In this document: piece after piece, positions 44,282 to 44,682 of the stretch
Layout of the letters: each line of letters starts with the position of its first letter
How positions within the stretch are numbered: the stretch's first letter is position 1
Notes under the pieces: model-generated
The model's input: only the letters and a program-made list of their open reading frames with translations
Databases searched by the model: none
Told to the model about the DNA's origin: nothing
DNA from: Cyclobacteriaceae bacterium
GTDB taxonomy: Bacteria > Bacteroidota > Bacteroidia > Cytophagales > Cyclobacteriaceae
Length of the DNA stretch: 64,000 nt
NCBI GenBank assembly: GCA_019694875.1
Contig: JAIBBC010000001.1
Span: forward strand, 496,001 to 560,000
Direction: 5' to 3'
Translations under genes and position numbers: made by a program

Positions 44282-44418
44282 CATCAAGTCGAGAGGGCAT
44301 TTCGCCAAATCGATTTATAAAGAAGCGCTGAGAGAACAGGCTCTATGACGCGCTAGCAACCTCGAAAAGGTGCTAAAGCCTGCCCGGAAGAAGGTCTTTC
44401 GGGAACGATAAACCGATG
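44282..44418 (+). promoter_or_regulatory. SAM riboswitch (SAM-I/SAM-IV clan)
   Basis: The leader upstream of metY carries the SAM-riboswitch core: CTATGACGCGCTAGCAACC at 44342-44360, AAAAGGTGCTAAAGCCTG at 44365-44382 and GGGAACGATAA at 44401-44411, with CATC (44282-44285) and GATG (44415-44418) able to close the P1 helix. It is preceded by its own promoter and followed by a cysteine-rich leader frame 5 bases later. SAM binding is expected to lower expression of metY-metX-hom. The core is known; the subclass is not fixed. Confidence 0.88.
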
Positions 44419-44422
44419 TAAA

Positions 44423-44554
44423 ATGAAAAATTTCATCAACACCATTTCAGCCGAATTCCGTCAGGGATTCCGTGTGTTCACTTCCCAACTCGATCAAGCC
44501 ATTTGTAATCTGTTCGCCAACAACACGTGTATGTGTTGTTGCTGCTGTTGCTAA
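44423..44554 (+). CDS. Cysteine-run leader peptide (43 aa), putative attenuator
   Basis: A 43-residue frame, ATG 44423 to TAA 44554, 5 bases after the riboswitch and 128 bases before metY. Residues 1-35 are ordinary (starting MKNFINTISAEF), residue 28 is already Cys, and the end is Asn-Asn-Thr-Cys-Met followed by six Cys codons (TGT TGT TGC TGC TGT TGC) and stop. MetY can use sulfide and is tied to cysteine/sulfur status, so a ribosome waiting for Cys-tRNA on this run could change the downstream RNA structure. The Cys codons 44543-44549 are complementary to 44575-44581. This resembles classical amino-acid attenuators and the Cys-tail leaders known in actinobacteria; the sensing role is inference. 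Confidence 0.75.
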   Translation: MKNFINTISAEFRQGFRVFTSQLDQAICNLFANNTCMCCCCCC

Positions 44555-44574
44555 GCGAAGCATTTCTGCTCCTT

Positions 44575-44629
44575 AACAGCACACTAGCCTATGACCATGT
44601 CATGTGACAGGCATTTTGGTTACGGCTAT
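44575..44629 (+). promoter_or_regulatory. Possible attenuator RNA structure downstream of the Cys leader
   Basis: AACAGCA at 44575-44581 can pair with the Cys codons at 44543-44549. A separate imperfect hairpin at 44587-44612 (GCCT...AGGC with internal pairs) is followed by ATTTT, and TAGCC (44585-44589) can instead pair with GGCTA (44625-44629). The exclusive pairings fit a switch, but none forms a strong terminator. Confidence 0.4.
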
Positions 44630-44682
44630 GTTCATTTATCATCATCAAAAAACAGATTCAAAACATTAAAACATACACAATC

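Follow-up and report, generated by a model that had tools for sequence, protein, structure and literature searches.

The leader of the metY-metX-hom operon studied here joins a metabolite aptamer and what would be a codon-reading ribosome in one RNA, where the methionine and cysteine pathways branch. A SAM-I riboswitch is followed, 8 nt downstream of its Rfam match, by a 43-codon frame that ends in Cys-Met-Cys6-stop, and the tandem recurs across the family and in other families of Bacteroidota. We consider it probable that this is a two-input leader working in series, in which SAM gates a leader peptide whose Cys and Met codons sense tRNA charging. The observation itself is real and more general than first thought; its SAM-gating half is argued from conserved anatomy, and its Cys-sensing half, together with the output of the latter, from the codon run. 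In this manner, SAM and Cys can probably both act on genes that supply the two sulfur amino acids.

In the window (the whole 64,000-nt stretch of DNA that was analyzed), the sole Rfam match at gathering score is RF00162 (SAM-I), situated at 44312-44414 of the plus strand with 71.1 bits (gathering score 44.4) and covering model positions 1-108; by sequence and structure the element belongs to the SAM-I family, and its P1 is intact. The T-box family gave no match at gathering score in the window, and the leader does not class as a tRNA-Cys T-box. A promoter is predicted on the same strand at 44248-44278, with TTG at 44248-44250, 20 nt, and then TACGTTTG at 44271-44278. The Bacteroidota promoter consensus is TTTG / TAnnTTTG, which the window promoter fits, and both TTG.AAAC and TACGTTTG are invariant across the eight rows of a promoter alignment (A2); from this motif, the transcript is expected to start near 44282. 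Shortly behind lies a 5' hairpin at 44286-44316, also on the plus strand (44286-44292 with 44310-44316, and 44296-44298 with 44304-44306 inside), which is backed by folds and by a permuted-arm test over 106 loci, and which occupies the 5' strand of P1 (hence anti-P1). The extended P1 pairs 44309-44318 with 44408-44417 (AUAAACCGAU), both on the plus strand, with one A.C mismatch, the 3' strand beginning 15 nt upstream of the leader AUG. The original prediction of a SAM-riboswitch core at 44282-44418 was thus borne out, as the RF00162 element together with the 5' hairpin and the tail of P1.

The predicted 43-codon frame was likewise found before metY-metX-hom, at 44423-44554 of the plus strand (ATG at 44423, stop at 44552-44554). 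It encodes MKNFINTISAEFRQGFRVFTSQLDQAICNLFANNTCMCCCCCC (43 aa), whose CMCCCCCC end corresponds to plus-strand codons 44528-44551 (Cys at 44528, Met at 44531, Cys at 44534-44551), and its AUG lies behind the riboswitch, some 140 nt past a transcript start that is itself placed by motif. The operon follows on the same strand: metY (O-acetylhomoserine sulfhydrylase, 44683-46005; TIGR01326, 675.6 bits, cut-off 495.1), starting 128 nt past the leader stop and 265 nt past P1; metX (homoserine O-acetyltransferase, 46005-47048), which stays below its curated NCBIfam cut-offs (NF001209, 313.3 of 331 bits; TIGR01392, 341.6 of 500 bits); and hom (homoserine dehydrogenase, 47045-48274; NF004976, 318 bits, cut-off 205). 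The whole window leader folds better than its shuffles (z -3.52). In the gap between fabG and the leader (44120-44192), a GATTTACGATGTGCGATTT-like stretch recurs in inverted copies, which were spotted by eye and may serve to terminate the upstream gene.

Since both helices use 44310-44316, the 5' hairpin and P1 are mutually exclusive in the window. Among 106 metY leaders, the extended P1 forms 4.48 of 6 pairs, vs. 3.63 ± 0.105 when the 3' strands are permuted among the loci (2000 permutations, maximum 3.98), and its position 2 varies in identity (GC in 33, CG in 29, TG in 19 and TA in 14 of the 106). The longest run of anti-P1 pairs averages 7.01 over the same number of loci, vs. 5.76 ± 0.106 with permuted arms (60 permutations); hairpin pairing was scored locus by locus with a script, and the MAFFT alignment had shifted the left arm of the 5' hairpin. 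By these comparative measures, the P1 and anti-P1 helices both covary. When the window is folded without ligand, the anti-P1 state is favored over P1 by 1.9 kcal/mol. With P1 forced, 44408-44417 drop from a mean unpaired probability of 0.72 to one of 0.15, and the AUG stays open (44418-44432 unpaired, 0.62 vs. 0.58), closure being limited to the upstream stretch. The simplest reading of these folds is that SAM would close the ribosome loading site of the leader.

The distance to the leader start is nearly constant as well, and in 81/106 metY leaders the first AUG comes 13-17 nt after the P1 3' strand (AUAAA...) begins. At 15 other SAM-I loci of the genus (10 before metH-like and 5 before gamma-synthase-like genes), the first ATG lies 32-78 nt away in 12 and is absent from the examined stretch in 3; three riboswitches before ATP-grasp genes have it at 9, 16, and 17 nt. 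The anatomy and covariation of P1 and anti-P1 are compatible with ligand-dependent translation of the leader, as in riboswitch-controlled uORFs of the Mycobacterium tuberculosis B12 type. The prediction of two sensors in one leader holds insofar as both are present; their independent action is less likely, because P1 and anti-P1 bear on access to the leader start, which probably places the two sensors in series.

Two further SAM-I riboswitches occur in the window's own genome, one before a metH-like gene (L003; named by eye from its translation) and the other upstream of an ATP-grasp gene of RimK-like type (L002), and neither locus has a comparable Cys run. Between riboswitch and gene at L002 (1501-2700), only an MRA-stop frame is seen. 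Behind the SAM-I before an ATP-grasp gene in L045 (1501-2744) there is a frame of 25 codons that ends in CSCCC-stop, 17 nt past the start of the P1 3' strand. Among the Cys3-stop sites of the own genome (30 of 44 read), the metY leader is the only leader-like one.

Conservation was assessed per locus; genomes of the same genus are not independent, and kinship is ignored in the counts. Within the genus, SAM-I is present in 17/17 genomes (39 riboswitch hits, 31 with sequence examined). The metY-leader riboswitch was found in 13 of them, with a Cys-run frame behind it in 13/13 and MetY downstream in all 13, about 470 nt further on in three (L040, L042, and L048, where these extra nucleotides lie between the Cys leader and metY). 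In the family, MetY is encoded in 117/148 genomes, giving 120 MetY rows, 112 of whose upstream regions were read (L011 and L032 included); the rows left out are those of G019, G147, G113, G049, and G005, the paralogues in G072 and G035, and a fragment in G038. Riboswitch positions were assigned here by a text pattern, which recognizes the core in 110/112 upstream regions and misses it in L103 and L164; the covariance model, run on the genomes, matches in at least 145/148. With a Cys-run frame defined as an ATG frame of 20-75 codons between riboswitch and metY whose last 12 codons include 3 or more for Cys, 78/110 riboswitch-bearing metY leaders carry one, vs. 1/110 on the reverse strand and 15/2200 dinucleotide shuffles. 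The remaining 32 have fewer than 3 Cys (two in 12 leaders, one in 7, none in 13), and the 12-codon limit misses distal runs, as in L137 and L140, which score 0 and yet hold CCCC 15-19 codons from the stop. The tandem of SAM riboswitch and Cys-run leader peptide is in this sense conserved in family and genus alike, which excludes the lack of frame and run in relatives that would have counted against it.

The changes within the frame agree with this. In seven of the nine pairs of close relatives compared (seven loci), pS is 0.31-0.41 and pN 0.06-0.15, and two nearly identical pairs give pS/pN of 0.08/0.01 and 0.06/0.04; synonymous change is thus enriched, as the original prediction had required, and a pN/pS of about 0.1-0.6 over the nine pairs denotes purifying selection on the peptide. 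From this conservation we infer that the leader is translated. Its N-terminal part diverges between genera, and the run varies in make-up (CCCMCCC, CCICICCPCCC, CMCCCCCC) while adjoining the stop. Cys accounts for 375/936 residues in the last 12 codons vs. 49/1904 upstream, a figure inflated by the choice of loci for Cys, and Met for 99/936 vs. 27/1904, a 7-fold enrichment. The predicted Cys run was upheld in this way, and Met codons have to be counted along with those for Cys. Ribosome-mediated (leader-peptide) attenuators are characterized by a short frame, kept in relatives, in which codons for the regulated amino acid follow one another, and the leader answers to this description. In three loci that look alike, an OsmC-like gene sits between the Cys leader and metY (L063:1000-1437, PF02566; L065:1021-1458; L117:448-885).

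Beyond the family, a class-level search found MetY in 26/119 genomes. An Rfam scan of 20 of these loci placed SAM-I before metY in 12, and 10 of the 12 have a Cys frame (at least 3 Cys in the last 14 codons); these 10 belong to seven families other than that of the window. Eight families of Bacteroidota accordingly show the combination of SAM-I and Cys run, Pedobacter and Mucilaginibacter genomes included, with family names taken from record titles. Among named genomes, a set that overlaps with the others, 62/80 loci show a frame whose last 12 codons include 3 or more for Cys (L269 being doubtful). Of 20 such loci scanned with Rfam, 16 have SAM-I, and 13 of the 16 have a Cys-run frame behind the riboswitch, namely Chryseosolibacter histidini, C. 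indicus, Chryseolinea serpens, Cesiribacter andamanensis, Marivirga arenosa, four Mucilaginibacter, Pedobacter frigiditerrae, and a Bernardetia, a Sediminibacterium, and a Flavobacteriales bin. In a Chitinophagaceae bin (L261), about 340 nt separate the riboswitch from the frame downstream of it. SAM-I occurs without a Cys-run frame in Pedobacter planticolens and Algoriphagus mannitolivorans, and the run is absent from 7/7 loci titled Algoriphagus. Judging from these neighbors, the window itself would belong to Cyclobacteriaceae. The orders holding the layout we take to be Cytophagales, Sphingobacteriales, Chitinophagales, and, with one bin, Flavobacteriales. The tandem had been put forward as unfamiliar in Bacteroidota; the tandem itself stands, and the window is no isolated case.

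Other designs were met on the way. Cys/Met-rich leaders precede metY without SAM-I there in L302, L177, L178, L185, L186, L190, and L191, the last six being among the eight scanned class-level loci that lack SAM-I before metY; in L302 (1000-1510), two Cys/Met leaders are each followed, by eye, by a terminator-like hairpin and a T run. In L191, a SAM-II (minus strand) and a SAM-I riboswitch (540-646 and 3876-3983) lie within 4 kb around a metY with a Cys/Met leader. Leader ends of a CICCxCCMP-like type ahead of the stop, about 150-190 nt before metY, occur in L261, L282, L286, and L297, and in L261 and L282 the leader stop codon lies in a hairpin loop (TATGCC-GTAA-GGCATA), a different design.

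The RNA downstream of the run is less uniform. As predicted, the Cys codons at 44543-44549 (TGCTGTT) are exactly complementary to a plus-strand stretch at 44575-44581 (AACAGCA), and minimum-free-energy folds pair the two in the same register. The motif CA[AG]CA, picked after inspection of the clade alignment, occurs within 60 nt of the stop in 22/27 loci of the own clade (mean 3.4 and maximum 10 in 500 shuffles); outside the clade it is not enriched (9/61, shuffled mean 5.6). Pairing of Cys and anti-Cys strands was also tried as a rule for the whole family and rejected, the mean z of the duplex being -0.63 vs. -0.67 for an N-terminal control. Cys codons facing a complementary downstream strand are, in short, a property of the own clade, and the family equals its control.

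Behind the anti-Cys strand, a hairpin at 44585-44628 of the plus strand is conserved in the clade (UAGCC 44585-44589 with GGCUA 44624-44628; A5 alignment, 16 rows). Its consensus consists of an outer and an inner helix of four pairs each, with one or more double changes in 4/8 pairs and a covariation term of +0.11, which amounts to no net support over the 16 rows; in the single-sequence fold, UGACC 44592-44596 pairs with GGUUA 44618-44622. The GUGACA at 44604-44609 contains a GUGAC that is invariant in the own-clade metY leaders, and no U tract follows the hairpin. As a known Rfam element the hairpin was discarded, there being no match and one hit of E 1.2 on the opposite strand. The 3' part of the window leader does not fold clearly better than its shuffles (z -1.79 and -1.12). 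The alternative hairpins expected after the Cys codons are retained as a conserved clade hairpin, with weak covariation and stability of the 3' part.

Over 78 loci, the RNA from stop to metY folds better than its shuffles (mean z -0.98). Intrinsic U-tract terminators number 0 in the window leader, which does not class as a classical trp-type attenuator; the 78 leaders of the family show more terminator-like hairpins than expected, both when a lax U tail is allowed (25 vs. 6.6) and when a strict one is required (11 vs. 3.2). Given this excess and the L302 hairpins with their T runs, transcription attenuation is likely in part of the phylum; for the window leader it is unproven.

Why Cys codons should be read before metY bears on how these bacteria obtain cysteine. 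The curated CysE cut-off is passed by 0/17 genomes of the genus (162 bits in the bin G158, at most 57 in the rest) and by 0/148 of the family; presence of CysE was therefore called at E <= 1e-30, which yields 102/148 genomes. Genomes of the genus encode cystathionine beta-synthase-like proteins (508.9 bits in the own genome, cut-off 510.25), and the own genome, without a CysE-level hit, has a cystathionine gamma-synthase/lyase family protein above its cut-off. Because of the missing CysE-level match and the presence of these two kinds of protein, Cys is probably made from MetY-derived homocysteine via cystathionine beta-synthase and a gamma-lyase-like enzyme. If this route holds, the metY operon would be the root of both Met and Cys. 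A second sulfhydrylase-like protein of the own genome falls just below its cut-off, and hence MetY need not be the sole entry of sulfide. Absence of CysE was tried as a predictor of the Cys run and gave a trend only (22/26 loci without vs. 56/84 with a CysE-like gene, p = 0.10).

Broadly, the leader would work as follows. At low SAM, the 5' hairpin (44286-44316) would hold one strand of P1, the region before the leader AUG would be open, and ribosomes would translate the 43 codons. At high SAM, the aptamer would close and P1 would pair 44408-44417 just upstream of the AUG, so that the leader would go untranslated and metY-metX-hom would be off, as with other SAM-I off-switches. Whenever the leader is translated, the Cys (and Met) codons near its stop would report charged tRNA-Cys: with Cys-tRNA scarce, a ribosome would stall on 44534-44551 and block the pairing of the Cys codons with 44575-44581, and the stalled ribosome would alter the folding of the downstream hairpin, which would act by termination or otherwise, with expression of the operon presumably going up. 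This series arrangement fits the chemistry, because MetY makes homocysteine, which leads to Met and SAM and probably to Cys. We infer the SAM and Cys responses, the gating and the sign of the Cys effect from the anatomy and the codons just described.

Both elements exist, and they could also be two independent switches in tandem, with the transcript, or metY directly, as the target of the riboswitch and with the Cys leader as a separate attenuator. The metY leaders without SAM-I (the seven loci named above) point that way, since their occurrence indicates that the leader can work alone. However, the window leader showed no terminator and metY begins 265 nt past P1, and it is the leader AUG that adjoins P1 at a near-constant distance, unlike at the 15 other SAM-I loci of the genus; we hold such a scheme to be rather unlikely. 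A different view keeps the dependence on leader translation and gives the Cys run no specificity for Cys: translation of the leader would serve for translational coupling or for protecting the RNA against Rho, with the run merely slowing ribosomes. The missing U-tract terminator suits this view, as do the M. tuberculosis B12 riboswitch, which works through a uORF (PMC11260477), and the Actinobacterial poly-Cys leaders, for which terminators are likewise lacking and Rho has been suggested in the passages concerned (PMC1262725). A neutral slow-codon role, though, would not pick Cys and Met, the end products of the pathway, and a stop 128 nt from metY is too far for a stop/start overlap like that of uPPE2, so that this explanation seems to us unlikely as well, and a little more so.

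Purifying selection on the peptide raises the further question of whether the Cys-rich product is functional in its own right, e.g., as a metal- or thiol-binding micropeptide; Cys clusters generally bind metals. Against it stand the divergent N-terminal part, the variable length and make-up of a run that abuts the stop, and the restriction of leader-like Cys3-stop sites in the own genome to metY (within the 30/44 sites read, and with the loci having been found via MetY; in L045, a similar frame precedes an ATP-grasp gene). We regard a function of the peptide itself as highly improbable.

The series arrangement, gated by SAM and read out by Cys and Met codons, is consequently the one we prefer. 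On its extension, by which much of Bacteroidota would use, as the expression platform of a SAM-I riboswitch, the region where an attenuator peptide sensing amino acids starts, with a serial AND-like logic turning MetY on only when SAM is low and charging of Cys (and Met) tRNA is low, our judgment is evenly divided. If the gating is true, the leader would be a natural two-input gate in which the riboswitch decides whether the second sensor is read at all, and a function would be at hand for many short frames (about 24-60 codons) upstream of metY.

The novelty lies in the combination of SAM-I and Cys leader in Bacteroidota, each part being known in kind; no report of a SAM riboswitch combined with a Cys leader was found among the matches listed (titles and abstract starts, and open-licence full texts without supplements). 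With the SAM-I (S-box) family, RF00162, the window element shares the aptamer, the position before Met genes and an intact P1, and it differs in its platform: in place of a terminator after P1, this seems to consist of the leader-peptide start, and a 5' hairpin competes for the 5' strand of P1. The ubiG operon of Clostridium acetobutylicum reportedly combines an S-box and a Cys T-box with an antisense RNA, and is said to answer to SAM and tRNA-Cys; the window has no T-box match, whereas T-box and antisense RNA do the work there. Mycobacterial poly-Cys frames are reportedly leaderless, going by the title of Canestrari 2020, and the window frame, not being at the predicted 5' end of its transcript, does not fall into that class.

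The poly-Cys leaders of Actinobacteria and mycobacteria are nonetheless close in kind, in that sulfur genes are preceded by a short frame with a Cys run close to the stop, and without a clear terminator; the passages on them mention no riboswitch (PMC1262725), whereas in the window SAM-I comes first, Met codons occur among those for Cys, and the phylum is another. The uORFC-8-2 before cysS in Rhodobacterales is alike as a uORF with Cys codons and hairpins; it differs in having two Cys codons and an intrinsic terminator, in its gene, and in that no riboswitch is mentioned in the text on it (PMC8632094). Within the phylum, strong signs that amino-acid operons are preceded by leader-peptide attenuators are reported for Flavobacterium psychrophilum, Cys not being named in the relevant text (PMC9723704). 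In M. tuberculosis metE and ppe2, the output of the B12 riboswitch passes through translation of a uORF, in ppe2 by stop/start overlap; a run of end-product codons is not described in the sections concerned (PMC11260477), and the window stop lies well apart from metY. The SAM-I riboswitch of the Xanthomonas met operon also binds uncharged initiator tRNA (PMC7270179): there, as would be the case here, one leader serves for SAM and for the state of a tRNA, by direct tRNA binding in Xanthomonas and by translation of Cys codons in the leader of the window.
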